Source: Frateuria flava
GTDB lineage: Bacteria; Pseudomonadota; Gammaproteobacteria; Xanthomonadales; Rhodanobacteraceae
Reading direction: 5' to 3'
DNA: 64,000 nt
Assembly (NCBI RefSeq): GCF_017837635.1
Contig: NZ_JAGJRS010000009.1
Location: forward strand, 1-64,000
The notes beneath the pieces were generated by a model. That model did no database searches and had not been told where the DNA came from. It worked only from the letters and a program-made list of their open reading frames with translations. The first letter of the stretch is position 1, and the number at the start of each line of letters is the position of its first letter. The position numbers and the translations under genes were made by a program. Shown here one piece after another: positions 33,055 through 51,079 of this stretch.

Positions 33055-33109
33055 GGCCTTCCGCGTAGCCTGCGGCTCTTTCAACCGCGTCGTCCGGTCT
33101 TGCCGGCAA

Positions 33110-33420
33110 GCCTTGGCCCTCACCCTAACCCTCTCCCCCGCAGGGGAGAGGGAGCTGTGGCTTTCAGGCCATGCCGAAACGCGCGTCCTGGCTCGAGCTC
33201 CTGCACCCTCTTCCCGGAGGGTAGGGGGGGGCGCGGCTTCAGGATATTCCGGGGCGCGTGTCGTGCCTCGAACTCCTGCTCCCTCTCCCCTGCGGGGCCG
33301 GGGCTGCCAGGAGCTTCCCGCATCGGTCCTGTTCCAACGACCCTCTTCGCAAGCCGTGATCCCTCACCCGGGTTCTCCCGCAGGTGAGAGGGGGCAGAAG
33401 CGCCGAACCCTCTCCCGGAT
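33110..33420. repeat. CTCTCCCC-GGGGAGAG repeat cluster
   Basis: Several copies of the CCCTCACCC...CTCTCCCCxxxGGGGAGAGGG palindrome family, partly degenerate (CTCTTCCCGGAGGG, CTCTCCCCTGCGGGG, CTCACCCGGGTTCTCC). They occupy the first 300 nt of the gap after the aldo/keto reductase gene. No ORF with coding character. Confidence 0.8.
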
Positions 33421-33427: not shown

Positions 33428-33479
33428 TGTCCGGCGCCTTGTCCGCCTGTCCGTGCCGGTGTCCGCGGACAGCGGACAC
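33428..33479 (+). promoter_or_regulatory. Cluster of TGTCCG/CGGACA sites (putative activator-binding array)
   Basis: Four direct TGTCCG (starting 33428, 33440, 33448, 33460) and two inverted CGGACA (33466, 33473) within 51 nt. The last ones make a palindrome, GTGTCCGC (33459-33466) and GCGGACAC (33472-33479) around a 5-nt spacer. It ends about 60 nt upstream of the sigma-54 -24 box, the right distance and symmetry for an enhancer bound by a sigma-54 activator dimer. The response regulator at 49239 is the obvious candidate. Inferred from pattern; untested. Confidence 0.6.
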
Positions 33480-33539
33480 GTCCGGCTCGCCTTCGCGCGA
33501 AACCAGCAGCCACGAGGGTTGCGCGCTCCTGACCCGACT

Positions 33540-33555
33540 TGGCACGGCGATTGCT
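33540..33555 (+). promoter_or_regulatory. Sigma-54 (-24/-12) promoter of the ABC array
   Basis: TGGCACG-GCGA-TTGCT (33540-33555) matches the sigma-54 consensus TGGCACG-N4-TTGCA/T at every conserved position, with GG and GC spaced correctly. Expected start of transcription about 12 nt further, some 20 nt before the adaptor ATG at 33590. Confidence 0.85.
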
Positions 33556-33589
33556 GTACCAGCCACAGTCACTAGGTCAGGACCGCCCG

Positions 33590-34861
33590 ATGATCCGCGA
33601 CACCTCCGCTCAAGACCGCCTGGTCGAGGTCAAACCCAACCGCAAGCGCCAGCTGCTTTTCGGCGGCATCGGCCTGGCCGTGCTGGTCGCGCTGGCTTTT
33701 GCGCTGCCCGCCGCGATGCGGCTGTTCTCGGCCGACGCCTCGGTGAGCGCCTCGCGGCTGTCCTTCGGCACCGTCGAGCGTGGCCTGTTCGTGCGCGACA
33801 TCGCGGCCGAGGGCAAGGTGGTGGCGGCGGTCAGCCCGACCATGTACGCCACCTCCGGCGGCGCGGTGACGGTCAAGGTGCACGCGGGCGACACGGTGAA
33901 GAAGGGCCAGGTGCTGGCCGTCATCGACAGCCCCGAGCTGACCAACAAGTTGCTGCAGGAAGAGTCCAACGCCGACGCGATGGAAGTGGAGTACCAGCGC
34001 GCGCAGATCGAGGCGCGCAAGCAGCGCTCCTCGCTGCAGAAGGCCTACGACAACGCGCTGATCGACCAGCAGGCGGCCGAGCGCGACCTGGCCCGCAACG
34101 AGAAGGCCTTCAAGCTCGGCGCCGTCTCGGGCATGGACGTGGACCGCGCCAAGGACACCCTGCAGAAGGCCAAGCTGACCACCCAGCACGCCAAGTCGGA
34201 CCTGGGCATGGACAACGCCAGCCTGAACTTCGACATCAAGTCCAAGAAGCTTGCGCACGAGCGGCAGGAGCTGCTGGTCAAGGACCTCAAGCGCCAGGTG
34301 GACGACCTCAACGTGAAGTCGCCGGTGGATGGCCAGGTCGGCCAGCTGTTCATCGCCGAGCGCGCCACTGTGGCCAAGGACGCCAAGCTGCTCAGCGTGA
34401 TCGACCTCTCCGCGCTCGAAGTGGAGATGCAGGTGCCGGAAAGCTTCGCGCGCGACCTGGGGATCGGCATGAACGGCGAGATCACCGGCAACGGCCATAC
34501 CTGGAAGGGCATCGTCAGCGCCATCTCGCCTGAAGTGGTCAACGGCGAAGTAGCCGCGCGCCTGCGTTTCGACGGTGCCACGCCCAAGCAGCTGCGCCAG
34601 AACCAGCGCCTGTCCGTGCGCATCCTGCTCGACAAGCGCGACAACGTGCTAACCGTGCAGCGCGGGTCGTTCGTCGACGAGTCCGGCGGCAACTACGCCT
34701 ACGTCGTGCACGAGGGCATTGCCGAGAAGAAGCCGATCCGCGTGGGCGCCAGCAGCATCGACAAGATCGAGATCCTGGATGGCCTGAAGGAAGGCGACCG
34801 GATCGTGATCTCCGGCACCGACAACTTCAAGGACGCGGCCAAGGTCGCGATCAGCGACTGA
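33590..34861 (+). CDS. HlyD/MacA-type periplasmic adaptor
   Basis: 423 aa. N-terminal membrane anchor (residues about 22-41) then HlyD-like architecture: half-lipoyl motif TSGGAVTVKVHAGDTVKKGQ, a long helical hairpin (residues about 120-230; LTNKLLQEESNADAMEVEYQ onward), second lipoyl half KSPVDGQVGQLFIAERATV, and a beta-barrel/membrane-proximal region (FVDESGGNYAYVVHEGIAEK). It would link the inner-membrane permease to an outer-membrane TolC-type channel, none of which is encoded nearby. ATG 33590 is the first start downstream of the sigma-54 promoter. First gene of the ABC array and the only adaptor for ten permeases. Confidence 0.93.
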   Translation: MIRDTSAQDRLVEVKPNRKRQLLFGGIGLAVLVALAFALPAAMRLFSADASVSASRLSFGTVERGLFVRDIAAEGKVVAAVSPTMYATSGGAVTVKVHAGDTVKKGQVLAVIDSPELTNKLLQEESNADAMEVEYQRAQIEARKQRSSLQKAYDNALIDQQAAERDLARNEKAFKLGAVSGMDVDRAKDTLQKAKLTTQHAKSDLGMDNASLNFDIKSKKLAHERQELLVKDLKRQVDDLNVKSPVDGQVGQLFIAERATVAKDAKLLSVIDLSALEVEMQVPESFARDLGIGMNGEITGNGHTWKGIVSAISPEVVNGEVAARLRFDGATPKQLRQNQRLSVRILLDKRDNVLTVQRGSFVDESGGNYAYVVHEGIAEKKPIRVGASSIDKIEILDGLKEGDRIVISGTDNFKDAAKVAISD

Positions 34862-34862
34862 C

Positions 34863-34975
34863 GATCACTCCCTCCCCTGCTTGCAGGGGAGGGTTGGGGA
34901 GGGGCGCTCTTCGCTTCGCCCGGGCCACCCCCTCCCAGCCTCCCCCTGCCAGCAGGGGGAGGAGCAAACCCTCAC
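34863..34975. repeat. CTCCCCTGC-GCAGGGGAGG palindromes
   Basis: Two CCCTCCCC-type hairpins between the adaptor and ATPase genes (TCCCCTGCTTGCAGGGGA; CCTGCCAGCAGGGGG). They are part of the same repeat family and may reduce read-through or protect mRNA segments inside the operon. Confidence 0.65.
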
Positions 34976-34995
34976 CACCACCGAAGGACGTAACC

Positions 34996-35709
34996 ATGCT
35001 CAAGATGACCCACCTGTCCAAGGTCTACCGCACCGAAGTGGTGGAGACCTATGCGCTGCGTGACTTCAACATCAACGTGAAGGAAGGCGAGTTCGTCGCC
35101 GTGACCGGCCCGTCCGGTTCGGGCAAGACCACCTTCCTCACCATCGCCGGCCTGCTGGAGACCTTCACCGGTGGCCATTACCACCTGGACGGCATCGAGG
35201 TGAGCCAGCTCAACGACAACGCCCGCTCGAAGATCCGCAACGAGAAGATCGGCTTCATTTTCCAGGCGTTCAACCTGATTCCCGACCTCAACGTCTACGA
35301 CAACGTCGAGGTCCCGCTGCGCTACCGCGGCATGAAGGCGGCCGAGCGCAAGCAGCGCATCATGGACGCGCTCGAGCGCGTGGGCCTGGCCTCGCGCGCC
35401 AAGCACTACCCGGCCGAGCTCTCCGGCGGCCAGCAGCAGCGCGTGGCGATCGCCCGCGCGCTGGCCGGCAGCCCGCGCCTGCTGCTGGCGGACGAGCCGA
35501 CCGGCAACCTGGACACCCAGATGGCCCGCGGCGTGATGGAACTGCTGGAGGAGATCCACCGCGAGGGCGCCACCATCGTCATGGTCACGCATGACCCGGA
35601 ACTGGCCGCCCGCGCCCAGCGCAACGTGCACATCATCGACGGCCAGGTGGTCGACCTGGCCGAAGAGCCGCGCTTCCACGCGCACAACGCGCGCGTCGCC
35701 GACGCCTGA
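34996..35709 (+). CDS. ABC transporter ATP-binding protein (LolD/MacB-N type)
   Basis: 237 aa ATPase. Walker [10 protein letters not shown] (about residue 40), Q-loop in [16 protein letters not shown], signature [16 protein letters not shown], Walker [13 protein letters not shown] and H-loop VTHDPE are intact. Sequence belongs to the MacB/LolD/FtsE group that energises FtsX-fold permeases. It is a stand-alone domain; the permeases here have no fused ATPase. It is the sole ATPase in the 16-kb array, so all five permease pairs probably share it. Confidence 0.95.
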
Positions 35710-35714
35710 CGTTG

Positions 35715-35765
35715 CTCCAGGCCCTCTCCCCCGGCCCTGCCGGGAGAGAGGTGGGAGAGGGTTGG
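35715..35765. repeat. CTCTCCC-GGGAGAG palindrome
   Basis: Copy of the dispersed hairpin family right after the ATPase stop. The remaining 130 nt before the first permease show more low-complexity CCCTCCCC sequence and no gene. Confidence 0.65.
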
Positions 35766-35893
35766 CCTTTGGTTTGTGCTCTGCAGCCGTGGAAGGCCGA
35801 GCAAGAGCCTCCCCCTCCCCCTAGCCTTCTGCCCCGCCTTCGCCGGGGAAGAGGGAGCAGGTGCGGCAACTCCACCTATCCGGAACCCCCGAC

Positions 35894-37201
35894 ATGTTCG
35901 CCTACTACTTCCAGCTTGGCCTGCGCAGTCTTCGCCGCAACCCGCTGTTGACCGCGTTGATGGTGATGGCGATCGGTTTCGGCGTGGCCGCCTCGATGAT
36001 CACCTATTCGGTGTTCCGGGCGACCTCGAACAACCCGATCCCGCAGAAGTCCGACCAGCTCTACGCCGTGCAGATCGCCAACTGGAAGGCGGAAGACCTG
36101 GACCAGGGCGAACCGCCGCCGGCGCTGACCTACACCGACGCCATGGCTTTCATGCAGGCGCACAAGGCCAAGCGCCAGACCGCGCTGTACCCGATCGCCC
36201 CGTCAGTGATTCCGGCCGACGCCAGCCGACTGCCGATCGAGGAGAACAGCTACGCCTGGTACGGCGATGCCTTCGCCATGTTCGACATCCCCTTCCTCTA
36301 CGGCGGCCCGTGGACGCAGGCGCAGGACGACGCGCGCGCGGCGGTGGTGGTGATCGGCAAGAAGCTCAACGACAAGCTCTTCAATGGCAAGGACAGCGTC
36401 GGCAAGACGATCAACCTGGACGGCCACGACTACCGCATCACCGGCGTGATCGGCGAATGGGATCCGCAGCCGCTGTTCTTCGACCCGGTCAACACCGGTG
36501 GCTTCGGCGATCCGATCGGCCTGTTCATTCCGTTCACCCGCGCGATCGACCTGCAGATGACCACCGCGGGCAACAACAACTGCAACGAAACCCCGGGGAC
36601 CGGCTGGGACAACTGGCTGCATTCGGAGTGCATCTGGATCGAGTACTGGGCCGAGCTTCCGACCCAGGCCGACGCCGATGCCTACAAGCGCTGGCTCACC
36701 GGCTATGCCGCCGAGCAGCAGCGTGCCGGTCGCTTCAAGTGGGCGCCGAACGTGCGCCTGCGCAACGTCACCGAATGGCTGGACTTCCAGAAAGTCGTCC
36801 CGCCAGAGTCGAAGATCTCGCTGCTGGTGTCGCTGGGCTTCCTGCTGATCTGCCTGGTCAACACCATCGGCCTGCTGCTGGCCAAGTTCATGCGCCGTTC
36901 GCCGGAAATTGGTGTGCGCCGTGCGCTGGGCGCCTCGCGCCGCGAGATCTATGCGCAGTTCCTGATCGAGGCGGGCACCGTGGGCCTGACTGGCGGCGTG
37001 CTGGGCCTGCTGTTGACAGGCCTGGGCGTGCTGGGCGTGGGCTGGGTGTTCGATGAACAGATCGCCCGCCTGGCCACGCTGGATGTATCGCTGATCGCGT
37101 TGACCATCGTCGCCGCCGTGCTGGCCACCCTGCTGGCCGCGTTCTATCCCACCTGGCGGGCCGCGCAGGTCCAGCCGGCCTGGCAATTGAAGTCCAACTG
37201 A
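35894..37201 (+). CDS. MacB/FtsX-like permease A1
   Basis: 435 aa. FtsX-fold topology: membrane helix 1 (about residues 17-38), a large periplasmic MacB-PCD-like domain (about 45-305), then helices at about 309-332, 357-386 and 399-421. The stretch [20 protein letters not shown] after helix 2 is the coupling-helix signature facing the ATPase. C230 and C246 in the periplasmic domain (GNNNC... HSEC) are likely a disulfide. Ends ...AWQLKSN. Closest to A2 (shared DPIPQKS-like loop, [29 protein letters not shown]). Paired with B1, 12 nt downstream. Confidence 0.93.
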
Positions 37202-37213
37202 GGAGGCGATGAC

Positions 37214-38446
37214 ATGTTGCAGATCAAGCCCATTCTCGCCGCCCTCAAGCGCCACAAGGCCGGCACCGTCCTGATCGCGTTGCAGATCGCGCTGACCCTG
37301 GCGATCGTGTGCAACGCGCTGTTCATCATCCAGCAGCGCACCGAGCATCTCTCGCGCCCGACCGGCATGACCGAAACCAACCTGCTGACCGTGGCCAACC
37401 GCTGGGTCGGCGCAGACGACAAGGCCACCCCGTCGTTGGGCAAGACCGACCTGGAGGCGCTGCGCCGCATGCCGGGCGTGGTGGACGCGACCCTGACCAA
37501 CTCCTACCCGCTGCGCGGTGGTGGCTGGTCGACCAGCGTCAATACCACGCCGGAGGCGAAGAAGGAGATGGCGCACACCACCCTCTACTTCACCGACGAC
37601 CATGCACTGGCGGCGATGGGGGCCAAGTTGGTCGCCGGTCGCAACTTCCGCCCGAGCGAGATCGAGTGGGTCGATGCGAAGGAGTTCCAGACCACGCCGG
37701 TGGTGATCGTGACCAAGGCGCTGGCGGACAAGCTGTATCCGGACGGCAGCGCGTTGGGCAAGGTGCTGTACCACTCCGGCCACACCAAGCCGAGCACCAT
37801 CATCGGCATCGTCGAGCGCCTGCAGGTGCCCTGGACCGGCACCTGGGCCAGCAACTTCGCCGAGAACACGATCCTGATTCCGCGGCTGCTGACCGGCAAC
37901 TTCGGCAGCTACCTGGTGCGCACCCAGCCCGGGCAGCTGGAGCGTTTGACCAAGGCCGTACCGAAGCTGCTGATCCAGACCAACCGCATGCGCGTGATCC
38001 CGGAGGAGCGCGGCGTGCGCACCTTCGCGCAGGTGCGCGAGCAGGCCTACAAGAGCGATCGCGGCATGGCGATCCTGATGGGCGTGGTGTGTGCCGTGCT
38101 GCTGGCGATCACCGCCGCGGGCATTGTCGGTCTGACCAGCTTCTGGGTGGGCCAGCGGCGCAAGCAGATCGGCGTGCGCCGTGCGCTGGGCGCGACCAAG
38201 CACGACATCCTTTCCTACTTCCTCACCGAGAACCTGCTGATCGGCGCCGGTGGCGTGATCGTCGGTGCGGCACTGGCGATCGGCATGAACCTGTGGCTGG
38301 TCAGCCACTTCGAGATGGAGCGGCTGTCGCTGCTGTACGTGGCCGCCGGCGTGATCGCGCTGCTGTTGCTGGGGCAGGGCGCAGTGTTGGCTCCGGCGAT
38401 GAAGGCCTCGCGCGTGCCGCCGGTGGAGGCGACGCGGTCGGTTTGA
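37214..38446 (+). CDS. MacB/FtsX-like permease B1
   Basis: 410 aa, partner of A1. Topology: helix 1 about 14-36 (VLIALQIALTLAIVCNALFI), periplasmic domain to about 285, helices about 286-312, 338-363 and 375-396, ending RVPPVEATRSV. The B-type signature before helix 2 is YKSDRGMAILMG, and the coupling motif is [20 protein letters not shown]. No cysteine pair in the periplasmic part. With A1 it would make the heterodimer that one ATPase dimer drives. Nearest relative is B2. Confidence 0.93.
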   Translation: MLQIKPILAALKRHKAGTVLIALQIALTLAIVCNALFIIQQRTEHLSRPTGMTETNLLTVANRWVGADDKATPSLGKTDLEALRRMPGVVDATLTNSYPLRGGGWSTSVNTTPEAKKEMAHTTLYFTDDHALAAMGAKLVAGRNFRPSEIEWVDAKEFQTTPVVIVTKALADKLYPDGSALGKVLYHSGHTKPSTIIGIVERLQVPWTGTWASNFAENTILIPRLLTGNFGSYLVRTQPGQLERLTKAVPKLLIQTNRMRVIPEERGVRTFAQVREQAYKSDRGMAILMGVVCAVLLAITAAGIVGLTSFWVGQRRKQIGVRRALGATKHDILSYFLTENLLIGAGGVIVGAALAIGMNLWLVSHFEMERLSLLYVAAGVIALLLLGQGAVLAPAMKASRVPPVEATRSV

Positions 38447-38612
38447 TTGCCGTCTGGATGTCCTCACAGGAAGAAGACAGGCACGAAGCGTGATACCGCC
38501 CGGCAGGTCGATCGAAGGCCGGGCATCGGCCAGGCGAGCGTGGAACGCGCGCCTGGCCCCACCTCACCCGAACCTCGTCCGCGGGCGGAAGCGGGCACAC
38601 ACTGGATGCCGG

Positions 38613-39926
38613 ATGTTTCTCCATTACCTCCAACTGGGCCTGGCAAGTCTTCGGCGCAACCCGCTGCTGACTGCGCTGATGGTGATGTCCATCGGCGTCG
38701 GCGTGGCCGCGTCGATGGTCACCTACGCCGTGTTCCGGGTGGTCTCCAGCGATCCGATCCCGCAGAAGTCCTCGCGCCTGTTCGTGCCGCAGCTGGACAA
38801 CCGCGGGCCGCGCTACAACCGCAACGGCGAGCCGCCGGACGCGCTCACCTACACCGATGCGATGGCCCTGATGCAGGCCCGTCGCGCGCCGCGCCAGACC
38901 ATGCTCTACCAGGTCGGCCTGTCGGTGATGCCGCAGCAACCGGGCCGGCTGCCGTTCAAGGCGCTGGGCTACGCCACCTTCGCCGATTTCTTCCCGATGT
39001 TCGAGGTGCCTTTCCTGTACGGCCGGGGCTGGAACGCCGACGGCGACGACGCACGCGCACCGGTGGTGGTGATCGGGCGCCAGCTCAACCAGCGCCTGTT
39101 CGGTGGGGCGGACAGCGTGGGACGCACGGTCGTGATGGACGACCAGGCGTACCGCGTCGCCGGCGTCATCGACGACTGGAACCCCCAGCCACGCTTCTTC
39201 GACATGTTCAGCAGCAACGGCTACGCCGATCCACCGCAGATTTTCGTGCCCTTCAATTTCGCCGTCGCCGCCGGTATCGAGACCTATGGCAACAACAGTT
39301 GCGGCAGCGGTGGCAAGCGCGGCTCGGACCGCGAAAGCTGGCTGCGCGGCGAATGCGTGTGGGTCAGCCCGTGGGTGGAGCTGGACGATGCCGCCCAGGT
39401 GCAGGGCTACCGCAGCTTCCTGGAAGGCTACGCCCGTCGGCTGCGCGAGGCCGGCCGGTTCGGCTGGGCGCCGAACGTGCGCCTGCGCGACGTGCGCCAG
39501 TGGCTCGACTATCGCGGTGCCGTGCCGCCCGAAAGCCGGATCGCACTGGCCGTGGCCATCGGCTTCTTCATCATCTGCCTGGTCAACACGATCGGCCTGC
39601 TGCTGGCCAAGTTCCTCCGCCGCGCGCCGGAGATCGGCGTGCGCCGCGCGCTGGGCGCCTCGCGACGGCACATCTACCTCCAGTTCCTGGCCGAGGCCGG
39701 CATGGTGGGACTGGCCGGTGGCGCGCTGGGCGTGCTGCTCACCGGCGTGGGCATGTTCGGCATCGGGCTGGTGTTCCAGCCGCAGATCGCCTGCCTGGCG
39801 CATCTGGACCTGCGGCTGGTCGCGCTTTCGCTGGCGGTCGCCATCGCCGCGACGGTGCTGGCGGCGTTCTACCCGACGTGGCGTGCTGCCCAGGTGCAGC
39901 CGGCCTGGCAACTGAAGTCCAACTGA
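38613..39926 (+). CDS. MacB/FtsX-like permease A2
   Basis: 437 aa, A-type. Nearly collinear with A1: [60 protein letters not shown] and the C-terminal AWQLKSN are shared, so A1 and A2 are a recent duplicate pair. Cysteines C230 and C248 conserve the periplasmic pair. Start 38613 is chosen because [20 protein letters not shown] aligns with A1; the frame is open upstream to 38490 in a 166-nt gap without other features. Confidence 0.92.
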   Translation: MFLHYLQLGLASLRRNPLLTALMVMSIGVGVAASMVTYAVFRVVSSDPIPQKSSRLFVPQLDNRGPRYNRNGEPPDALTYTDAMALMQARRAPRQTMLYQVGLSVMPQQPGRLPFKALGYATFADFFPMFEVPFLYGRGWNADGDDARAPVVVIGRQLNQRLFGGADSVGRTVVMDDQAYRVAGVIDDWNPQPRFFDMFSSNGYADPPQIFVPFNFAVAAGIETYGNNSCGSGGKRGSDRESWLRGECVWVSPWVELDDAAQVQGYRSFLEGYARRLREAGRFGWAPNVRLRDVRQWLDYRGAVPPESRIALAVAIGFFIICLVNTIGLLLAKFLRRAPEIGVRRALGASRRHIYLQFLAEAGMVGLAGGALGVLLTGVGMFGIGLVFQPQIACLAHLDLRLVALSLAVAIAATVLAAFYPTWRAAQVQPAWQLKSN

Positions 39927-39934
39927 GGCACGCC

Positions 39935-41170
39935 ATGGACATGCAGGTCGGACCCATTCTCTCCGCACTACGGCGCCACAAGGCCGGGGCCGTGCTGATC
40001 GCGTTGCAGATCGCGCTGACCCTGGCGATCCTGTGCAACGCCCTGTTCATCGTGCACCAGCGCCTGTCGCACCTGTCCGAGCCGACCGGCCTGGACGAGG
40101 CAAACATTTTCGTGATCCAGAACGAATGGGTGGGCAAGGCCTCCTACGCGCAACTGGACGCCGAAGCCCGTGCGGACCTGGAAGTGTTGCGCCGGTTGCC
40201 CGGGGTGGCCGACGTCACCACCAGCAATTCCTATCCGCTGCGCGGCGCTGGCTGGGACGACGGCATCCGCCTGCACCCCGACCAGCTCACCGATACGACC
40301 GGTGCGACGGTGTATTTCGCGGACGAGCATTTCGTGCGGACGCTGGGCCTGAAGCTGGTCGCCGGGCGAGATTTCCGCGCCGGGGATATCGGGGTCATGG
40401 CTGCGCAGGATCGCCTCGATCCGTCGCAGGTGATCGTCACCCGGGCCCTGGCAGACACCTTGTTCCATGGCGACACAGCGGTCGGCCGCACCCTCTACCT
40501 GGCGGGCAGCCCGGCCACCATCGTCGGCGTGGTCGACAGGTTGCAGGCGCAGAGCGTGGCGCGCTGGGCCGCGGATTTCGCGCATCGGGTGGTGATCGTG
40601 CCGCGGCGGCTGACCAGTACCCTGGGCACCTACTACATCGTGCGCACGCACCCGGGCCAGCTTGCCGCGGCGATGCGCGCGGCGCCCGCGGCGCTGGTCG
40701 CCCGCAATCCGCGCCGCATGTTCGACCCCCGGATGGGGGTGCTGAGCTTCGCCCAGGTGCGCGAGCGTGCCTACGAGAGCGACCGCGGCATGGCCACGCT
40801 GATGGGCGTGATCAGCGCGGTGCTGCTGGCGATCACCGCCGCCGGCATCGTGGGCGTGACCAGTTTCCGCGTCGGCCAGCGGCGGCGGCAGATCGGCGTC
40901 CGGCGGGCGCTGGGCGCCACCCGTCATGACATCGTCCGTTACTTCCTGGTCGAGAACCTGCTGGTCAGTGGCAGCGGGATCCTGCTCGGCGTGCTGCTGG
41001 CGCTGGCCATGAACCTGTGGCTGATCCTGCGCTTCGGCATGCAGGGCCTGTCACCGGCCTACCTCGCCGCGGGCGTGGCGGTTCTGCTCCTGCTAGGGCA
41101 GGCCGCGGCGCTGGCACCCGCCCTGCGCGCCTCGCGCGTGCCACCGGTGGAGGCGACCCGTGCCGGTTGA
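39935..41170 (+). CDS. MacB/FtsX-like permease B2
   Basis: 411 aa, partner of A2 (8-nt gap). MDMQVGPILSALRRHKAGAV, LIALQIALTLAILCNALFIV in helix 1, B-type motif YESDRGMATLMG, coupling motif [20 protein letters not shown] and C-terminus RVPPVEATRAG. Like B1 it lacks periplasmic cysteines. High similarity to B1 across the whole length, fitting duplication of an A-B unit rather than of single genes. Confidence 0.92.
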   Translation: MDMQVGPILSALRRHKAGAVLIALQIALTLAILCNALFIVHQRLSHLSEPTGLDEANIFVIQNEWVGKASYAQLDAEARADLEVLRRLPGVADVTTSNSYPLRGAGWDDGIRLHPDQLTDTTGATVYFADEHFVRTLGLKLVAGRDFRAGDIGVMAAQDRLDPSQVIVTRALADTLFHGDTAVGRTLYLAGSPATIVGVVDRLQAQSVARWAADFAHRVVIVPRRLTSTLGTYYIVRTHPGQLAAAMRAAPAALVARNPRRMFDPRMGVLSFAQVRERAYESDRGMATLMGVISAVLLAITAAGIVGVTSFRVGQRRRQIGVRRALGATRHDIVRYFLVENLLVSGSGILLGVLLALAMNLWLILRFGMQGLSPAYLAAGVAVLLLLGQAAALAPALRASRVPPVEATRAG

Positions 41171-41259
41171 GCTGCCACCGCCCGCGGCCGGCCGCCGCCC
41201 CTTCTTCAGCACCCGCATGCCGCGGCGGCGGCGGTGCCTGCACTCCTGGAGCGCCTAGC

Positions 41260-42561
41260 ATGTTCGGCTACTACCTCGACCTCGCACTGCGCAGCCTCAG
41301 GCGCAACAAGGCGCTCACCGCGCTGATGGTGCTGGCCATCGCGCTGGGCATCGGTGCGTGCATGACCACGCTGACCGTGCTGCACGTGCTGTCGGGCGAC
41401 CCGCTGCCGGGAAAGAGCGCGCAGCTGTATTACCCGCAGCTCGACCCGCGGGACATGGACGGCTACCAGCCCGGAGAGGACCCGCCGGTGCAGGTGACCT
41501 GGACCGACGGCATGAACCTGCTGCGTGCCGGGCGTGCCGACCGCCAGGCGCTGATGACCGGCGGTGCGGTGCCGTTGCAGCCGGCGCAGTCCTCGATCGA
41601 GCCGTTCTTCGAGAACGCGCGCTACACCAGCGCCGACTTCTTCCCGATGTTCGAAGTGCCGATCCTCTACGGCCGCCCGTGGACGGCCGCCGACGATGAA
41701 GCGCACGCGCGTGTCGCGCTGATCTCGCGCAAGCTCAATGACAAGCTCTTCCAGGGCCGTGACAGCACCGGCGAGACGCTGCGCATGAACGACGTGGCCT
41801 TCCGCATCGTCGGCGTGCTGGACAGCTGGCGGATGACGCCGCATTTCTACGACCTCAACAACGGCAGCTACGCCGAGGACGAGGGCGTCTACCTGCCGCT
41901 GACCACCGCATACGAGCTCAAGCTCGGCCGCAACGGGTCGACCGACTGCTGGGGCAAGGGCTCCGACCCCGACCACATGGACACCGCCCCTTGCGTGTGG
42001 CTGCAGTACTGGGTGCAGCTGGATACGCCGGCCAAGGCCGCCGCCTACAAGCAGTTCCTGATCCACTACTCGCAGGAGCAGAAGGCGCTGGGCCGTTTTC
42101 AGCGCCCGCCGAACGTGCGCCTGCCCGACGTGATGGGCTGGCTGGACTACAACAAGGTCGTGCCGGGCGACGTGCGGCTGCAGGCGTGGCTCGCGCTGGG
42201 CTTCCTGCTGGTCTGCCTGGTCAACACGGTGGGGCTGATGCTGGCCAAGTTCCTGCGCCGCAGCGCCGAACTGGGCGTGCGCCGCGCACTGGGCGCCTCG
42301 CGCCGCGAGGTGTTCATGCAACTGCTGGTCGAGTCGGGCGTGATCGGGCTCACCGGCGGTATCGCCGGCCTGTTGCTGTCGCTGGTGGGGTTGTGGCTGG
42401 TGCGCAAGCAGCCGTCCGATTACGCCGCACTCGCCCACCTGGACCTGCCGATGCTGCTGGCCACCTTCCTGCTGGCGGTCGGCGCCTCGCTGCTGGCCGG
42501 CCTGCTGCCCGCCTGGCGTGCCTGCCAGGTCACTCCCGCGCTGCAGCTGAAGAGCAACTAG
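41260..42561 (+). CDS. MacB/FtsX-like permease A3
   Basis: 433 aa, A-type of the second lineage: MFGYYLDLALRSLRRNKALT, then SGDPLPGKSAQLYYPQLDP, which A1/A2 lack. C230 and C245 (STDC... TAPC) keep the periplasmic pair. Coupling stretch [20 protein letters not shown], end ...QLKSN. Start 41260 follows CTGGAG about 9 nt upstream and aligns with A4 and A5. Confidence 0.93.
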   Translation: MFGYYLDLALRSLRRNKALTALMVLAIALGIGACMTTLTVLHVLSGDPLPGKSAQLYYPQLDPRDMDGYQPGEDPPVQVTWTDGMNLLRAGRADRQALMTGGAVPLQPAQSSIEPFFENARYTSADFFPMFEVPILYGRPWTAADDEAHARVALISRKLNDKLFQGRDSTGETLRMNDVAFRIVGVLDSWRMTPHFYDLNNGSYAEDEGVYLPLTTAYELKLGRNGSTDCWGKGSDPDHMDTAPCVWLQYWVQLDTPAKAAAYKQFLIHYSQEQKALGRFQRPPNVRLPDVMGWLDYNKVVPGDVRLQAWLALGFLLVCLVNTVGLMLAKFLRRSAELGVRRALGASRREVFMQLLVESGVIGLTGGIAGLLLSLVGLWLVRKQPSDYAALAHLDLPMLLATFLLAVGASLLAGLLPAWRACQVTPALQLKSN

Positions 42562-42571
42562 GAGCCTGGCC

Positions 42572-43795
42572 ATGGACATCCTTCCGATCCTTTCCACGCT
42601 GCGCCGGCACAAGATCACGGCGTTGCTGCTGGTGCTGGAGATCGCGCTGACCTGCGCGATCGTCTGCAACGCGGTGTTCCTGATCAACCAGCGGCTCGAG
42701 CGCATGAAGATGGCCAGCGGCGTGGCCGAGCACGAGCTGGTCCAAATCCAGGCCTTCGGCATCGGCGACACCGCCGACGCCAAGGCGCACGCGCAGGAAG
42801 ACCTCACCGCGTTGCGGCAGATCCCGGGGGTGAAGTCGGTGGCGCTGGTCAACCAGGTGCCGTTCACCAACAGCTCCTGGAACACCAGCGTCAAGCTCGA
42901 TCCCAAGCAGAACCAGGCCACCCTCAACGCCACGCAGTACTTCGGCGAGAACCTGCTGCAGACCTTCGGCACCCGCCTGGTGGCCGGGCGCGACTTCGCG
43001 CCGGACGAGTACCTGGACATGCGCCTGGTGGCGCGCGACGAGAAGCTCGCCAAGAAGGTCGTCTCCGTGATCATCACCCGCGACCTGGGCCAGAAGTTGT
43101 GGCCGGGCCAGTCGGCGCTGGGCAAGACCCTCTACCTGGGCGGCGACCCGATGCGCGTGGTGGGCGTGGTGGCGGGCCTGATCCGTCCGTCGCTGTTCGG
43201 TGGCGACGCCACGGCGCAGTGGTCGATGGTGTTCCCGCTGCGGATGGATTCGGACAACGCCAGCCGCTACGTGATCCGCACCGCGCCGCAGGACCGTGAG
43301 CGCGTGCTGGCGGCCGCCGCGGCCACGCTGCGCAAGAACGACCCGCACCGGATCATCCTGGAGAAAAAGACGCTCGATGACATTCGCGCCGATTTCTTCC
43401 AGGACGACCGCGCCATGGCCGGCCTGCTCGCCGGCGTGTGCATCGCGCTGCTGGTGGTCACCGCGCTGGGCATCGTCGGCCTGGGCAGTTTCTGGGTCGC
43501 CCAGCGGCGGCGCACCATCGGTGTGCGCCGTGCATTGGGCGCCACCCGCGGCAGCATCCTGCGCTACTTCCAGACCGAGAACTTCCTGCTGGCGACCATC
43601 GGCATCGCGCTGGGCATGGTGCTGGCCTACGGCATCAACCTGTTCCTGATGCTGCATTACGAGCTGCCGCGGTTGCCTGCCTATTACTTCCCTATCGGCG
43701 CGATCGCGCTGTGGCTGATCGGGCAGGTGGCGGTGCTGGGACCGGCCATGCGCGCCGCGGCGGTGCCGCCCGTAGTGGCTACGCGAAGCGTTTGA
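42572..43795 (+). CDS. MacB/FtsX-like permease B3
   Basis: 407 aa, partner of A3 (10-nt gap). B-type of the second lineage: helix 1 VLEIALTCAIVCNAVFLINQ, pre-helix-2 motif FQDDRAMAGLLAG, coupling motif [20 protein letters not shown], then YFQTENFLLATIGIALGMVL and RAAAVPPVVATRSV. These same blocks recur in B4 and B5 but differ from B1/B2, so two B-lineages track the two A-lineages. Confidence 0.93.
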   Translation: MDILPILSTLRRHKITALLLVLEIALTCAIVCNAVFLINQRLERMKMASGVAEHELVQIQAFGIGDTADAKAHAQEDLTALRQIPGVKSVALVNQVPFTNSSWNTSVKLDPKQNQATLNATQYFGENLLQTFGTRLVAGRDFAPDEYLDMRLVARDEKLAKKVVSVIITRDLGQKLWPGQSALGKTLYLGGDPMRVVGVVAGLIRPSLFGGDATAQWSMVFPLRMDSDNASRYVIRTAPQDRERVLAAAAATLRKNDPHRIILEKKTLDDIRADFFQDDRAMAGLLAGVCIALLVVTALGIVGLGSFWVAQRRRTIGVRRALGATRGSILRYFQTENFLLATIGIALGMVLAYGINLFLMLHYELPRLPAYYFPIGAIALWLIGQVAVLGPAMRAAAVPPVVATRSV

Positions 43796-43799
43796 TCTG

Positions 43800-43975
43800 G
43801 CTGCCTCTCTTCTCAGGGGAGAGGGATGGGGTCGGGGGCGCGCAGGGACGTCTGTTTTTACGAGGCAAAGCTGATGATGGCATTGGGAACGAATATTCAG
43901 GGACGGCGGCAGCCCTCGCTCTGCCCGACTCCTCACCCCAGCCCTGTCCCCGGCGGGGAGAGGGCGCACAGGACG
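43800..43975. repeat. CTCTCCCC-type hairpins between modules 3 and 4
   Basis: Two palindrome copies (CTCTCTTCTCAGGGGAGAGG around 43803; CTGTCCCCGGCGGGGAGAGG around 43943) within the 194-nt gap. No coding sequence or obvious promoter is seen there. Confidence 0.65.
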
Positions 43976-43989
43976 GAGGCACGCGTCTG

Positions 43990-45309
43990 ATGTTTGGCTA
44001 TTACTTCGACCTGGCGATGCGCAGCCTCAAGCGCAACAAGGTTCTCACTGGGCTGATGGTGCTGGCGATCGCTGTCGGTATCGGCGCCAGCATGACCACG
44101 CTGACGGTGATGTACCTGCTCTCGGGCGATCCGTTGCCCGGCAAGAGCGCCCGGATCTACTACCCGCAGCTGGATCCGGAAACCGGCGCCGACGTGCGCA
44201 AGAACCCCGCGGATCTCCTGGACTACATCTCCGCGCACGACCTCTGGCAGTCGGGCAAGGCCGACCGACAGACGATGGTCGTGTTCGGTTCGATCAAGTT
44301 GCAGCCGGGCCTCGCCGGGCAATCCCCGTTCATGGCCGACACGCTGGCCACGACCTCGGACTTCTTCCCGATGTTCGACGTGCCGTTCCGTTACGGCGGC
44401 GCGTGGAATGCCGCCGACGAGGCGCGCGGGGTGCGTCAGGTGGTGATCTCCGACGTGCTCAACCAGCGGCTGTTCGGCGGCGCCAACAGCGTGGGTCGTA
44501 CGATCGTGCTCAACGGTACCGGCGTACAGGTGGTCGGCGTGCTCGACCATTGGCGGCCGCGGCCGCTGTTCTACATGCTGGTGGGTGCGCGCTATTCGGG
44601 CGGCGACACCGGCGGCTATTACGTGCGGCCGCAGGACGTGTTCCTGCCGATGCCGACCGCGCTGGACATCAACGCGGGCAACTTCGGCTGGTTCAGTTGC
44701 TGGGGCAAGCCCGACCGCATGGACCTGCGCAACGCGCCGTGCGAATCGGTGGGCCTGTGGGTGCAGTTGGACACCGCCGCCAAGGCCGCCGCCTATCGCC
44801 GCTATCTGGATGCCTACGATGCGCAGCAGCGCGCCCTCGGCCGTCTCAGCCATCCGGCCAACACGCGGATGATGTCGTTGCACGAGTGGATGGCCTACCA
44901 GAACGCGGTGCCCAGCGACGTCAAGCTGCAGACCTGGCTGGCGTTCGGTTTCCTTTTGGTGTGCCTGTTCAACACGGTCGGCCTGTTGCTGGCCAAGTTC
45001 CTGCGTCGCAGCGGCGAGATCGGTGTGCGCCGGGCGTTGGGTGCCACGCGTGGCGCGATCTTCGCCCAATGCCTGGCCGAGGCGGGTGTGATCGGCCTGC
45101 TCGGCGGCGTGGGTGGATTGCTGCTGACCTTGCTGGGGCTGTGGCTGGTACGCCAGCAGCCGGTGGCGTACGCCGACGTGGTGGCGCTGAACGTGCCGAT
45201 GCTGCTGCTCACGATCCTGCTCGCGGTCGCCGCGTCGCTGCTGGCCGGCGCGTTCCCGGCCCTGCGCGCCAGCCGCGTGCCGCCGGCGCTGCAACTGAAG
45301 ACGCTTTAG
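43990..45309 (+). CDS. MacB/FtsX-like permease A4
   Basis: 439 aa, A-type second lineage: MFGYYFDLAMRSLKRNKVLT, SGDPLPGKSARIYYPQLDP, coupling stretch [21 protein letters not shown]237 and C251 (WFSC... NAPC) preserve the predicted disulfide at slightly shifted positions. The C-terminus is LQLKTL instead of LKSN. Start ATG 43990 directly abuts the repeat-containing gap; TGATG at the end of it gives no clear ribosome site. Confidence 0.92.
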   Translation: MFGYYFDLAMRSLKRNKVLTGLMVLAIAVGIGASMTTLTVMYLLSGDPLPGKSARIYYPQLDPETGADVRKNPADLLDYISAHDLWQSGKADRQTMVVFGSIKLQPGLAGQSPFMADTLATTSDFFPMFDVPFRYGGAWNAADEARGVRQVVISDVLNQRLFGGANSVGRTIVLNGTGVQVVGVLDHWRPRPLFYMLVGARYSGGDTGGYYVRPQDVFLPMPTALDINAGNFGWFSCWGKPDRMDLRNAPCESVGLWVQLDTAAKAAAYRRYLDAYDAQQRALGRLSHPANTRMMSLHEWMAYQNAVPSDVKLQTWLAFGFLLVCLFNTVGLLLAKFLRRSGEIGVRRALGATRGAIFAQCLAEAGVIGLLGGVGGLLLTLLGLWLVRQQPVAYADVVALNVPMLLLTILLAVAASLLAGAFPALRASRVPPALQLKTL

Positions 45310-45368
45310 CCGCGCCGTCCGCGCGAGAGCACGGAACGCACAAACCTCAGAGATCCGGGATCCCACAC

Positions 45369-46574
45369 ATGCAAATCCGACCCATCCTCGCCGCCTTGCG
45401 CCGCCATCGCGTGGCTGCGTTCCTGATCGGCATGGAGATCGCCCTGGCCTGCGCGATCCTCTGCAACGCGCTGTTTCTGATCTCCGCCCGCATCGACACC
45501 ATGCAGGTGAGCAGCGGCGTCGATGAAGACCGGCTGGTGGTGGTTTCGCTCGACGGCGTCGACGACAACGCCGCTGCCGACCTCGCCGCGCGGCTGCGTT
45601 CGGGACTGGCGGGGATCGCCGGCGTGCAGTCGGTGGCGGTCACCAATGCGGTGCCGTTCGGGCAGCAGGCGGGCGAAGCCGGCTTCCGCCTGCGCGCGGA
45701 CGACCCGCACTACGACAACCAGGGGCACTTCTACGTGGGCGGCCCGGCGCTGCCCTCGACGCTGGGCCTGCAGCTTGCGGAAGGCCGCTGGTTCACGCCG
45801 GACGAGTTCGGTCCGATCAGCGAGTTCCTGCCCAGGTCGCCTTCGATCATGCTCGACAGCGAATACGCCAGGACGCTGTGGCCGGGCGAGAGCCCGCTGG
45901 GCAAGACCGTCTACGCGATCGACAAGGCCTTCCGCGTGGTGGGCACCTACCGCTCGCTGCTGCGGCCCAATCCCAACCCCGGCCACACGCACAACACCCT
46001 GTTGCTCGCCGGCATCCCCGGCAAGGGCCTGGCCAGCGTCTACGTACTGCGCACCGCGCCGGGCAAGGCCGACCAGGTGTTGCAGGCGGCGCGCGCACTG
46101 GTGGCGCGGGTCGCGCCTGCCGTGGTGGTGAACCAGGACTACACCGACACCATCAGCGGTTTGCGCCGGTCCTACTTCGCTGCCGACCGCGCCATGGCCG
46201 GCATGCTGGTCGGCGTGATCGCGGCGCTGCTCCTGGTCACCGCGCTGGGCATCGTGGGGCTGGCCAGTTTCTGGGTCCAGCAACGGCGCAAGCAGATCGG
46301 CGTGCGCCGCGCGCTGGGCGCCACCCGCGGCGACATCCTGCGCTACTTCCAGACCGAGAATTTCCTGATCGTCAGCTTCGGCATCGCGCTGGGCATGGTG
46401 CTGGCTTTCGGGCTCAACCTGGTGTTGATGAGCCGCTACGAACTGCCGCGTCTGCCGCTGTTCTACCTGCCAGCCGGCGCACTGCTGCTGTGGGTACTGG
46501 GCCAGCTGGCGGTGCTGGCGCCGGCCCTGCGCGCCGCGGCGGTGCCGCCGGTGGTGGCCACGCGCTCGGTTTGA
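45369..46574 (+). CDS. MacB/FtsX-like permease B4
   Basis: 401 aa, partner of A4 but separated by 59 nt, the largest gap within a pair. Helix 1 MEIALACAILCNALFLISAR, pre-helix-2 FAADRAMAGMLVG, coupling [20 protein letters not shown], and YFQTENFLIVSFGIALGMVL as in B3. Its periplasmic region is the shortest of the B-types (GQQAGEAGFRLRADDPHYDN), so this is the part most likely to differ in partner or substrate contact. Confidence 0.92.
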   Translation: MQIRPILAALRRHRVAAFLIGMEIALACAILCNALFLISARIDTMQVSSGVDEDRLVVVSLDGVDDNAAADLAARLRSGLAGIAGVQSVAVTNAVPFGQQAGEAGFRLRADDPHYDNQGHFYVGGPALPSTLGLQLAEGRWFTPDEFGPISEFLPRSPSIMLDSEYARTLWPGESPLGKTVYAIDKAFRVVGTYRSLLRPNPNPGHTHNTLLLAGIPGKGLASVYVLRTAPGKADQVLQAARALVARVAPAVVVNQDYTDTISGLRRSYFAADRAMAGMLVGVIAALLLVTALGIVGLASFWVQQRRKQIGVRRALGATRGDILRYFQTENFLIVSFGIALGMVLAFGLNLVLMSRYELPRLPLFYLPAGALLLWVLGQLAVLAPALRAAAVPPVVATRSV

Positions 46575-46611
46575 GTTCGCCGCAACGTTCGATTCGCCAG
46601 GAGCACACGGA

Positions 46612-47916
46612 ATGTTCGCCTACTACCTCGACCTCGCCCTGCGCAGCCTCCGGCGCAGCCCTGTGCTCACCGGCATGATGGTGCTGGCGATCGGGTTGGG
46701 CATCGGTGCCAGCATGACCATGCTGACGGTGTTGCACGTCATGACGCGCGATCCGTTGCCGGAGCTGAGTGCGCAGCTCTACTACCCGCACCTGGACCCG
46801 TTGCCGGCGAACTACCCCGCTCGCAGCGAGTGGGGCGATCCGAGCGACAACTTCACCTGGCCGGACGCGATGGCGCTGCTCGAGGCCCATCGCGCGGACC
46901 AGCAGGCCGCGATGGCTGGGGGCAGGGTGCTGGCGTGGCCGGTGCAGGCCGGCCGCATGCCGTTCCGGATCGGTGGCCGCTACGCCACCGCCGGCTTCTT
47001 CGACCTGTTCGGACTGCGCTTCGAGCAGGGCCGGGGATGGACCGCGGCGGACGATGAGGCGCGTGCGCGGCTGGTGGTGCTCAGCCACGCGCTGGCCATG
47101 CAGCTGTTCGGGCGGACAGACGTGGTGGGACGTACGGTGCGGCTGGGCGACGCGCGGTTCCAGGTGGGCGGGGTCACCGCCGACTGGGCGCCGCAGCCGC
47201 AGTTCTATGCCGACGCCTCCGGCCGAGGCAATTACGGCGAATCGGACCGCTTCTTCCTGCCGCTGGCCACGGCGCTGGACCTGGACCTGAGCGTGAGCGG
47301 CAACCAGGCGAGCTGGAAGGAGGGCGGCAAGACCAGCGGCAACTACACCTGGCTGCAGGTGTGGGTGCGGCTGAAGAATGCCGCGCAGGCGCGCGCCTAT
47401 CGCCAGTTCCTGATCGACTATTCCGCCAGCCAGCAAAAGCTGGGGCGGTTCGAGCGCCCGCCGGCAAACGCCGCGCTGTATCCGATGATGGACTGGCTTG
47501 CGCACCAGAAGCTGGTGCCCAACGACCTACGCCTGCAGTTGTGGCTGGCGCTGGGCTTCCTGGTCGTGTGCCTGGTCAACATCGTGGCCTTGTTGCTGGC
47601 CAAGTTCCTGCGGCGCAGCGGCGAGGTCAGCGTGCGCCGCGCGCTGGGGGCGAGGCGGCGCGACATCTTCCTGCAGTTCGGCGTCGAGTCGGCACTGGTG
47701 GGCAGCCTCGGCGGACTGCTGGGCGTGGCGATCGCGCAGGCTGGGCTGTGGAGCGTCCGCCAGCGTCCGGACAGCTACGCACACGTCGCCCGCATGGATC
47801 TTTCCATGCTGGCGCTGACCGTGCTGCTGGCAATCGCCGGCAGCCTGCTGGCCGGGATGCTGCCGGCCTGGCGCGCCAGCCGCGTCGCGCCTGCCCTGCA
47901 ACTGAAGGCCCAGTGA
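46612..47916 (+). CDS. MacB/FtsX-like permease A5
   Basis: 434 aa, A-type second lineage (MFAYYLDLALRSLRRSPVLT; DPLPELSAQLYYPHLDP; coupling KFLRRSGEVSVRRALGARRR). Unlike A1-A4 it has no cysteine pair in the periplasmic domain: the region reads SGNQASWKEGGKTSGNYTWL. Its partner B5 has gained two cysteines instead. It ends ALQLKAQ. The most diverged A paralogue. Confidence 0.92.
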   Translation: MFAYYLDLALRSLRRSPVLTGMMVLAIGLGIGASMTMLTVLHVMTRDPLPELSAQLYYPHLDPLPANYPARSEWGDPSDNFTWPDAMALLEAHRADQQAAMAGGRVLAWPVQAGRMPFRIGGRYATAGFFDLFGLRFEQGRGWTAADDEARARLVVLSHALAMQLFGRTDVVGRTVRLGDARFQVGGVTADWAPQPQFYADASGRGNYGESDRFFLPLATALDLDLSVSGNQASWKEGGKTSGNYTWLQVWVRLKNAAQARAYRQFLIDYSASQQKLGRFERPPANAALYPMMDWLAHQKLVPNDLRLQLWLALGFLVVCLVNIVALLLAKFLRRSGEVSVRRALGARRRDIFLQFGVESALVGSLGGLLGVAIAQAGLWSVRQRPDSYAHVARMDLSMLALTVLLAIAGSLLAGMLPAWRASRVAPALQLKAQ

Positions 47917-47926
47917 GGAACACGCC

Positions 47927-49156
47927 ATGGCTTTGCGCCCGATCCTTTCCAGCCTTCGCCACCACAAGCTCACCGCCGGCCTGTTGGTCCTGCAGGTCGC
48001 CCTGACGCTGGCGATCGTCGCCAATGCGGCCTTCATGGTGGCCCAGCGCCTGCAGCGCATCCACACGCCCAGCGGGCTGGCCGAGCAGCAGCTCTCGCTG
48101 ATCCGGGTGGAAGGCACCGCCAAGGACGAAAATCACGAGGCACGCCACGCGGCCGACCTCGATACGCTGCGCCGGATTCCCGGAGTGCAGGCGGCCGTCG
48201 CGGTGGGCTGGGCGCTGCCCTTCAGCAGCAGCGTGAACAGCTACGGCGTCTGCCCCAACGAGGAGGCGCTCAAGCGCGCGATGGCCGCGAGCAGCCTGGA
48301 CCACAGCGGTTGCCTGTCGATCGACACCTACAGCGGTAGCCAGGGTTTTCTCCAGGCGCTGGGTCTGCGGGTGATCGCGGGCCGCGATTTCACCCCCGAC
48401 GAGTACGTCACCGGCGACGTGCCCGCGATCATGCTCACGCGCGCGGCCGCAAGAAAATTCTTCGGCGACAAGGACCCGCTTGGCCAGGTGGTCTTCGCCG
48501 GCAAGCACAGCAGTCGCGTGGTCGGCATCGTCAGCGATGTCGTGCGGCCCATGTTGCGCGGCGACGGCAGCGATGGCGAGGTCATGCTCTGGCCGCAACT
48601 GCCCGACGACAACGAAACCACCTATCTGCTGCGCAGCGCGCCCGCCGATCGCGACCGGGTGCTTGCCGCTGCCGCCACGGCGCTGCAGGCGCTCGACCCG
48701 GACCGCCTGATTCCCGAGGCGGGCCGGCGGACTTACACGCAGATGCGCGAGGACTACTTCCAGCGCGACACCACCATGATCGGTCTGCTGTTGTCCGCGG
48801 GGCTCGGGCTATTGTTCGTGACCGCGCTCGGCGTGGCGGGCCTGGCCAACTTCTGGGTGCAGCAGCGCACCCGCACCATCGGTATCCGCCGCGCGATCGG
48901 CGCCACCCGGACCGACATCCTGCGCTACTTCCAGGCGGAGAATTTCCTGATCGTGGGCGGTGGCGTGGTGCTGGGCATGGTCCTGGCGCTGATCCTGAAC
49001 CTGTTGCTGATGAGCCGCTACGAACTGCCGCGCCTGCCAGTGTGGTACCTGCCGACCGGCGCGCTGGCGTTGTGGGCGCTGGGCCAGCTCTCGGTACTGG
49101 CACCGGCGCTACGCGCCTCGCGGGTGCCGCCGGTGGTGGCGACGCGGTCGGTGTGA
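47927..49156 (+). CDS. MacB/FtsX-like permease B5
   Basis: 409 aa, partner of A5 (10-nt gap). Helix 1 has IVANAAFMVAQ (the CNA motif of B1-B4 is ANA here). The periplasmic segment carries C109 and C129 (SYGVCPNEE... DHSGCLSID), absent from other B paralogues. Pre-helix-2 region FQRDTTMIGLLLS is also divergent, while coupling QQRTRTIGIRRAIGATRTDI and C-terminal RVPPVVATRSV are kept. Last permease before the regulator genes. Confidence 0.92.
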   Translation: MALRPILSSLRHHKLTAGLLVLQVALTLAIVANAAFMVAQRLQRIHTPSGLAEQQLSLIRVEGTAKDENHEARHAADLDTLRRIPGVQAAVAVGWALPFSSSVNSYGVCPNEEALKRAMAASSLDHSGCLSIDTYSGSQGFLQALGLRVIAGRDFTPDEYVTGDVPAIMLTRAAARKFFGDKDPLGQVVFAGKHSSRVVGIVSDVVRPMLRGDGSDGEVMLWPQLPDDNETTYLLRSAPADRDRVLAAAATALQALDPDRLIPEAGRRTYTQMREDYFQRDTTMIGLLLSAGLGLLFVTALGVAGLANFWVQQRTRTIGIRRAIGATRTDILRYFQAENFLIVGGGVVLGMVLALILNLLLMSRYELPRLPVWYLPTGALALWALGQLSVLAPALRASRVPPVVATRSV

Positions 49157-49186
49157 GGGGCGGTGGCTTCCCCTTTGGCGGACCTG

Positions 49187-49202
49187 TGGCAACCTTTTGG
49201 CA
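49187..49202 (+). promoter_or_regulatory. Candidate sigma-54 promoter of the response regulator
   Basis: TGGCAACCTTTTGGCA (49187-49202) keeps the GG-N10-GC spacing and the TGGCA -24 half of a sigma-54 promoter, but the -12 half is TGGC rather than TTGC. It lies 37 nt upstream of the regulator start and would allow autoactivation. No TGTCCG array is visible upstream. Confidence 0.5.
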
Positions 49203-49238
49203 TGGAGATGCATCCATGCCCACATGTGCAGGAAAAAA

Positions 49239-50641: not shown

Positions 50642-50721
50642 GCGCCTGGGCGTGCATTTTGGCGGTTGCCGGTATCACAGGGGCGAGGGATGATCGACGC
50701 AAAGTCCCCAAGGAGAGAACC

Positions 50722-51057: not shown

Positions 51058-51079
51058 TCCGCCCGGTCCGGAGCCGCGC

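Follow-up and report, generated by a model that had tools for sequence, protein, structure and literature searches.

The window analysed here, a 64,000-nucleotide stretch of DNA from Frateuria flava (Rhodanobacteraceae; NZ_JAGJRS010000009.1), carries on its plus strand an operon (33590-52456). Its genes encode, in order, one adaptor and one ABC ATPase, then five A/B pairs of half-permeases (ten proteins in all), and last a response regulator of the NtrC type and a histidine kinase. The first gene, with its annotated start at 33590 downstream of the promoter described below, encodes a periplasmic adaptor (membrane fusion protein) of 423 aa (33590-34861) that matches HlyD_D23 and HlyD_3, with RND_mfp over the cut-off; its nearest named matches are in Frateuria terrea and Frateuria sp. 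STR12 (94% identical protein). It is followed by a 237-aa MacB/LolD/DarD-like ABC ATPase (34996-35709; ABC_tran). The half-permease pairs lie at 35894-38446 (A1, 35894-37201; B1, 37214-38446), 38613-41170 (A2, 38613-39926; B2, 39935-41170; 59 and 56% identical to A1 and B1), 41260-43795 (A3, 41260-42561; B3, 42572-43795), 43990-46574 (A4, 43990-45309; B4, 45369-46574) and 46612-49156 (A5, 46612-47916; B5, 47927-49156), with mutual identities of 39-59% among the A proteins and 37-56% among the B proteins. A1, B1, A3 and B3, with MacB_PCD and FtsX domains, pass the Pfam cut-offs, as do the adaptor and the ATPase, and the other six permeases were assigned by similarity to these pairs. A1 and B1, although separate genes, match the two halves of the ADOP model TIGR03434 (149.5 bits over positions 7-401 and 181.6 bits over 411-801, respectively) and both miss its cut-off of 622.3 bits, which applies to one protein with both halves. 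The DarBCD equivalog cut-offs (DarC, 81.8 of 450 bits; DarD, the best NCBIfam match of the ATPase, 256.5 of 375 bits) and the NCBIfam cut-off for MacB are also missed by the operon's proteins, and it is in the broad sense, by permease domains, adaptor and ABC ATPase, that this is a MacB-type (FtsX/MacB_PCD) ABC exporter.

The response regulator (49239-50579) combines REC, AAA+ and Fis-type HTH regions, and its Sigma54_activat and HTH_8 domains and the GAYTGA motif at residue 229 bear out the initial annotation, which had described a linked activator with an intact GAYTGA loop and a Fis HTH. The sensor histidine kinase (51080-52456), recognised by its domain match, has an HELNNSL H-box and two predicted transmembrane helices separated by a loop of about 27 residues, a topology that suggests sensing within the membrane, as some kinases do that watch a partner transporter. 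In three stretches from outside the family that extend beyond the regulator (L364-L366), the kinase gene comes next. In the window the two genes are separated by a 500-bp stretch (50580-51079) in which a plus-strand ORF (50659-51054) gave no significant Pfam match. RpoN is encoded in the genome (E 9.4e-70). Elsewhere in the window, a short tandem repeat on the minus strand (55790-55880) consists of five identical 15-mers with 19-bp spacing. A paralogous system (L143; G000 contig 5:65500-85000, here the C5 paralogue) comprises an adaptor, an ATPase, three fused ADOP permeases, two of which exceed the TIGR03434 cut-off, a regulator and a kinase; it has its own sigma-54-type promoter with one TGTCCG half-site in 200 bp and no array.

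Promoter and half-site array

A -24/-12 element of the sigma-54 type, TGGCACGGCGATTGCT (TGGCACG-N4-TTGCT), starts at 33540 on the plus strand, and the match to the consensus that had been claimed for it is exact. The promoter proper occupies 33540-33554 (TGGCACG-GCGA-TTGC) and is alone among the matches listed for exact TGGCAC-N5-TTGC in the window, where a looser search is meaningless (83 matches with at most two mismatches vs 91 expected). Upstream, TGTCCG half-sites lie on the plus strand at 33428, 33440, 33448 (together 33428-33453) and 33460, with spacings of 12, 8 and 12 nt, and on the minus strand at 33466 and 33473. The fourth and fifth form a perfect palindrome, TGTCCGCGGACA, at 33460-33471, which we propose as the main site of a regulator dimer; the sixth, CGGACA at 33473-33478, is found at the same place in 3 of 54 loci, the window included. 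From the palindrome to the -24 element runs a spacer of 68 bp (33472-33539).

The six half-sites and their spacings are thus as first described, and their density (six in 51 nt, 33428-33478) exceeds the maximum of four found in 1000 first-order Markov windows. It is the clustering that is unusual, since TGTCCG is not over-represented in the window as a whole (40 seen vs 45.7 expected). Exact TGGCAY-N5-TTGC sites number 26 genome-wide, and some of these must be due to chance, as the reversed pattern gives 8. Within 200 bp upstream, the site at 33540 has six half-sites and one on contig C14 has four, and the other 24 have none or one. The intergenic region that precedes the array (33100-33420) looks repeat-like by eye, with several CCCTCTCCC / GGGAGAGGG palindrome-like elements.

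Conservation of the switch in relatives

For comparison, 55 loci were fetched by similarity of the adaptor protein only, so that DNA sequence was not a criterion, and 54 were used (L060 was dropped because it matched over 24 residues only). A TGGCAY-N5-TTGC promoter is present in 55 of 55 loci (54 relatives and the window), and the palindrome TGTCCGCGGACA is perfect in all of them except L033, which carries TGTCCGCGGACG. Half-sites occur at 4.56 per 250 bp in the adaptor loci vs 0.17 in base shuffles, although the relatives are not independent and this and the other shuffle and Fisher figures given here overstate the certainty. Among the 54 loci with the palindrome, half-sites are found 11-12 nt upstream of it 50 times and 20 nt upstream 23 times. 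The most constant element is the palindrome at a fixed distance from the -24 element, and the direct half-sites upstream of it vary among relatives.

In the adaptor-fetched set, the gap between palindrome and -24 element falls into two classes, 55-56 bp (4 loci) and 65-68 bp (50 loci), with none between. Over 153 distinct sites, most of them selected by a pattern that limited the gap to 58-85 or 50-79 bp (a limit from which the adaptor-fetched set is free), it is 55-56 bp in 8, 63-69 bp in 144 and 84 bp in one. The two classes are about one helical turn (~11 bp) apart. In more distant adaptor loci, seven palindromes start 57-67 nt before the -24 element, and five of these are the exact 12-mer at 64-67 nt (gap 52-55 bp). 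Such joint conservation and fixed spacing, with an NtrC-type regulator linked to the locus, support the earlier proposal that array and promoter form a regulatory unit ahead of the ABC genes. In the adaptor leaders of relatives, a 5-bp hairpin (e.g., GGCCGC..GCGGCC; L012:9940-10000, L021:273-333) immediately precedes the ribosome-binding site; it has compensatory changes on both sides at 3 of 5 pairs and is broken in none of 22 chosen sequences; no such hairpin was seen by eye at 33555-33589 of the window.

An element resembling an IHF site (WATCAA-N4-TTR-like, with at most one mismatch) was found in 44 of 77 adaptor promoters vs 2.8 in shuffles, mostly in reverse orientation and about 41 bp before the -24 element. 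It also occurs in 18 of 41 microprotein promoters (see below; 1.8 in shuffles), here mostly forward and about 29 bp before -24, in 5 of 11 promoters of orphan permeases (0.4), in 6 of 23 other promoters (0.5) and in 16 of 24 distant loci (0.64), 12 of which have it starting 17-18 nt before -24. Such a site is common, though not required, between enhancer and promoter; in the window spacer (33472-33539), where it was looked for, it was not recognisable (best match with four mismatches), nor was it in three of the four near relatives tested.

The number of half-permease pairs varies, since the distance from array to regulator, in the cases worked out, is as short as about 4.7 kb (G047) and as long as about 26 kb (G029). 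Among seven divergent 20-kb stretches of the same family that were anchored on the regulator, six contain an adaptor, an ATPase and one A/B pair, and one (L299) contains none of these; stretches from outside the family mostly have one A/B pair, with more A and B hits in L348 (5), L353 (4) and L360 (2). From these gene contents, one pair looks ancestral, with expansions in several lineages.

Other copies of the switch and their targets

A genome search for further palindromes with -24/-12 sites, suggested in the initial annotation, yielded two more units, both before genes for small membrane proteins. One, on contig C14 (33542-33668), precedes a 68-aa ORF; the other, on the minus strand of contig C7 (17143-17261), precedes a 50-aa ORF, with a palindrome one base off, a gap of 57 bp and GTGC as its -12 element; 4 of 4 stretches fetched from the same genus contain this unit, likewise with GTGC. 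The array had been read as the head of a single regulon: it does head a conserved exporter module, but it is accompanied by these two further units. All TGTCCGCGGACA palindromes were also considered as targets, and two of the four in the genome (C1:12808 and C19:27522) were not counted because they are without TGGCAY-N5-TTGC. These two GTGTCCGCGGACAC palindromes (L107 ~2809 and L108 ~4523) are followed by TGACTT-type repeats and are possibly the sites of another regulator.

Behind the 153 sites lie genes for the adaptor (79), a microprotein family (51), orphan permeases (14), one family of exported proteins (3) and other small transmembrane ORFs (2, those of the two outside-family genomes), with 4 unclear. 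These counts include 24 sites left unclassified by the script and reassigned by eye to microproteins (8, and 2 more short/long ones), other small transmembrane ORFs (2), adaptor (2; L261 counted twice), permeases (3), the exported-protein family (3) or unclear (4). One unclear site, before a transposase-like gene (L246), is probably due to chance. In L148, L155 and L207 the array precedes a protein of 319-324 aa with a signal-like start, and the first 80 residues of the L155 protein had no Pfam hit.

The microprotein family

Homologues of the 68-aa ORF are present in 59 of 97 genomes of the family, often several per genome. In most of the microproteins the N-terminus resembles MKFETLMLRSLFAACLLVC, and a single, strongly hydrophobic stretch lies near residues 11-28. 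Three size classes can be told apart: long forms of 64-73 aa, mostly with a C-x8-C or C-x9-C tail, short forms of 45-51 aa without the tail, and the smallest, of 28-29 aa (eight seen), which end directly after the helix; the N-terminal helix is thus common to all. Two members scanned had no Pfam hit up to E 1 and one stray NCBIfam match (12.6 of 574 bits). Gene callers tend to miss proteins of this size. Five genomes of one genus supply six different 28-aa ORFs, which differ at codon positions 1, 2 and 3 by 37, 33 and 127 changes, with 97 synonymous vs 57 non-synonymous codon changes over 15 pairs, and no conserved continuation follows their stop. On account of this pattern, the synonymous excess and the lack of a continuation, we take these predicted ORFs to be genuine genes. 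For the long forms the apparent sign of selection is weaker (3029/1218/3910 position differences for 31 sequences in register, 2811 synonymous vs 3185 non-synonymous changes in their first 28 codons, and 3635/1657/4297 in an unaligned codon-position tally), and their assignment rests on homology.

Microprotein genes may also stand in tandem behind one array, as long and long (L313), short and short (L314, where two arrays follow each other) or short and long (L316). Two genomes of group g24 (G024 and G042) have long permease arrays, with about 15 kb from array to regulator, and no microprotein match; the coupling of exporter to microprotein is therefore not strict, and there is no simple correspondence with the number of pairs. 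A per-genome tally of ADOP permeases against microproteins was dropped, as about nine candidates at most were scored per genome.

Distribution across genomes

The palindrome and promoter pattern was found in 145 of 197 genomes of the family, covering 22 of 26 genera, and its reversed control in none. In an order-wide sample of 299 genomes, a slightly wider pattern was present in 65 of the 76 family members; of the 223 other genomes, 2 had it. The regulator (match at E<=1e-120) occurs in 177 of the 197 family genomes; of 60 genomes chosen from outside the family, 35 have it, among them 21 of the 21 from another family (f2). Of the 177 genomes with a regulator match, 138 have arrays, vs 7 of the 20 without (counts taken by hand; Fisher p 1.4e-4, weakened by shared ancestry and incomplete assemblies).

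Among 25 distant adaptor loci (6 within the family, 19 outside; the C5 paralogue, with an adaptor 26% identical, was left out), 24 have TGGCAY-N5-NTGC, the exception being L363, and TGTCC/GGACA occurs at 3.62 per 150 bp before these promoters vs 0.32 in shuffles, with at most one copy in 4 of 24. The -12 element is relaxed to NTGC there. The predicted module extends into other families of the order, where the -12 element and the arrangement of sites have drifted, and the strict palindrome and promoter pattern alone would have missed its distant copies. A scan of L304, a stretch not anchored on the regulator, for palindromes gave none.

Discussion

Our results make us highly confident that 33428-33554 comprises the enhancer and the sigma-54 promoter at the head of a two-component regulon that would produce an exporter and microproteins; from sequence, we infer the binding and phosphorylation of the regulator, the dependence on RpoN, the signal and the function of the microproteins. 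The membrane kinase, to judge from its two transmembrane helices and short loop, could sense an envelope signal and phosphorylate the NtrC-type regulator, dimers of which would bind the TGTCCGCGGACA palindrome, with the extra TGTCCG half-sites helping hexamer assembly. The activator would then loop over a spacer of fixed helical phase, which holds an IHF-like site in many relatives and not visibly in the window, and open Esigma54 at 33540. The output would be a MacB/ADOP-type exporter made of one adaptor, one ATPase and several half-permease pairs that can be exchanged, and also, from genes elsewhere that are preceded by copies of this switch, small membrane proteins with a single helix. The regulator, as part of the exporter operon, would probably raise its own level.

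The most serious alternative concerns the small proteins, which might be substrates of the exporter, that is, secreted peptides such as precursors of bacteriocins or pheromones, and not partners in the membrane. A switch common to microproteins and a MacB/Dar-like exporter would fit this reading, as would the cysteine-bearing tail of the long forms and the occurrence of the family in multiple copies, sometimes short and long in tandem. However, in the 28-29 aa forms there is hardly anything besides the conserved helix, so that no secreted product would be left, and it is the N-terminal helix, not the tail, that all forms share; we consider export of these proteins unlikely, if still worth keeping in mind. 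Since there are genes whose product is just the helix, we favour a role for the microproteins within the membrane, as partners of the exporter or of the kinase. A further idea, which we advance tentatively and hold to be somewhat short of probable, is that exchangeable half-permease cassettes are coupled to a family of dedicated transmembrane microproteins, the smallest a bare helix of 28 residues, that act in the membrane as accessory subunits or feedback regulators of permeases or kinase, different copies tuning different pairs.

The linked regulator was assigned to the array by linkage and co-occurrence only. The genome encodes seven proteins that match the sigma-54 activator region, and the array could be read by another of these, with the linked regulator governing something else, an arrangement to which the arrays kept in 7 of 20 genomes without a regulator match would also correspond. 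Yet in 6 of 7 regulator-anchored stretches from the family, and in 19 of 20 from outside it, an adaptor gene is found no more than 20 kb from the regulator (the two without are L299 and L366, a 6.3-kb contig). Moreover, the 11-residue core of the regulator's HTH is nearly unchanged where the motif is TGTCC-based: it is found in 33 of 33 orthologue loci of the family and 23 of 30 outside, six of the other seven differing by one or two residues and one not being found, whereas the C5 paralogue, whose promoter has one half-site, differs at this position (LGITRQSLYRR). Control by another activator is thus quite improbable. As for the half-site repeats being a chance or repeat-element cluster of no regulatory role, the repeat-like region just upstream and the lack of a window-wide enrichment of TGTCCG would fit this reading, but the comparison contradicts it: the array is conserved, with its spacing fixed, in 54 of 55 loci and turns up again ahead of unrelated genes. 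We dismiss it.

The regulon of a phosphorylated activator at the array, as we propose it, has parallels in several known systems. Our search of open-access papers produced none that we recognised as describing the TGTCCG motif or the regulon, and the TGTCCGCGGACA 12-mer occurred in one paper, on CD164 by its title. The qrr genes of Vibrio encode small RNAs, whereas the targets here are protein genes. In the available passages on 61 Vibrio qrr enhancers, loop lengths fall in classes about 11 bp apart, and the LuxO-controlled and synthetic sigma-54 enhancers share with ours tandem activator sites and a tolerance of whole helical turns; the activator and motif are different here, and the loop is shorter (~52-57 or 63-69 bp vs ~80-120 bp; PMC4740811). 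With our two spacing classes, this helical-turn rule reported for sigma-54 enhancers gains another example from nature. Xylella belongs to the same order as the family of the window. The sigma-54 promoter of Xylella fastidiosa glnA has an IHF site, AATCAA-N4-TTG, and upstream activator sites, as do many promoters of our set with their IHF-like element, although it is under NtrC, unlike our operon with its proposed regulator; in the same species, according to the passages available, a weak sigma-54 site is predicted 263 bp before the HlyD-family gene XF2093-94 (PMC3224663). Genome-scale regulons include FtsX-like permeases under predicted sigma-54 control and, in Opitutia, COG1136 antimicrobial-peptide-transport ATPases, and the passages available from that work contain no TGTCCG enhancer, microproteins or Rhodanobacter (0 occurrences; PMC12316311). 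As far as these sources go, the cis-architecture is classical and the control of FtsX-like permeases by sigma-54 has already been predicted (PMC12316311). Apparently new are the link drawn across families between a TGTCCG enhancer and this exporter, the variable number of half-permease pairs and the microprotein family.

With the darobactin exporter DarBCD, MacAB and ADOP, this operon has in common an adaptor, a MacB-type ATPase and MacB_PCD/FtsX permeases, but its permease is split in two genes, corresponding to ADOP halves, and five such pairs stand beside one ATPase. What emerges is a connection, open to direct testing, of one DNA motif and one two-component system with a multi-permease exporter. 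Through the same motif, very small membrane proteins come to light as a family, of which the two members scanned fit no Pfam or NCBIfam model. Small membrane regulators such as MgrB, AcrZ and KdpF are likewise single-helix proteins, about 30-50 aa long and associated with a kinase or transporter; unlike these, the microproteins described here form a multi-copy family with three size classes and one type of enhancer.
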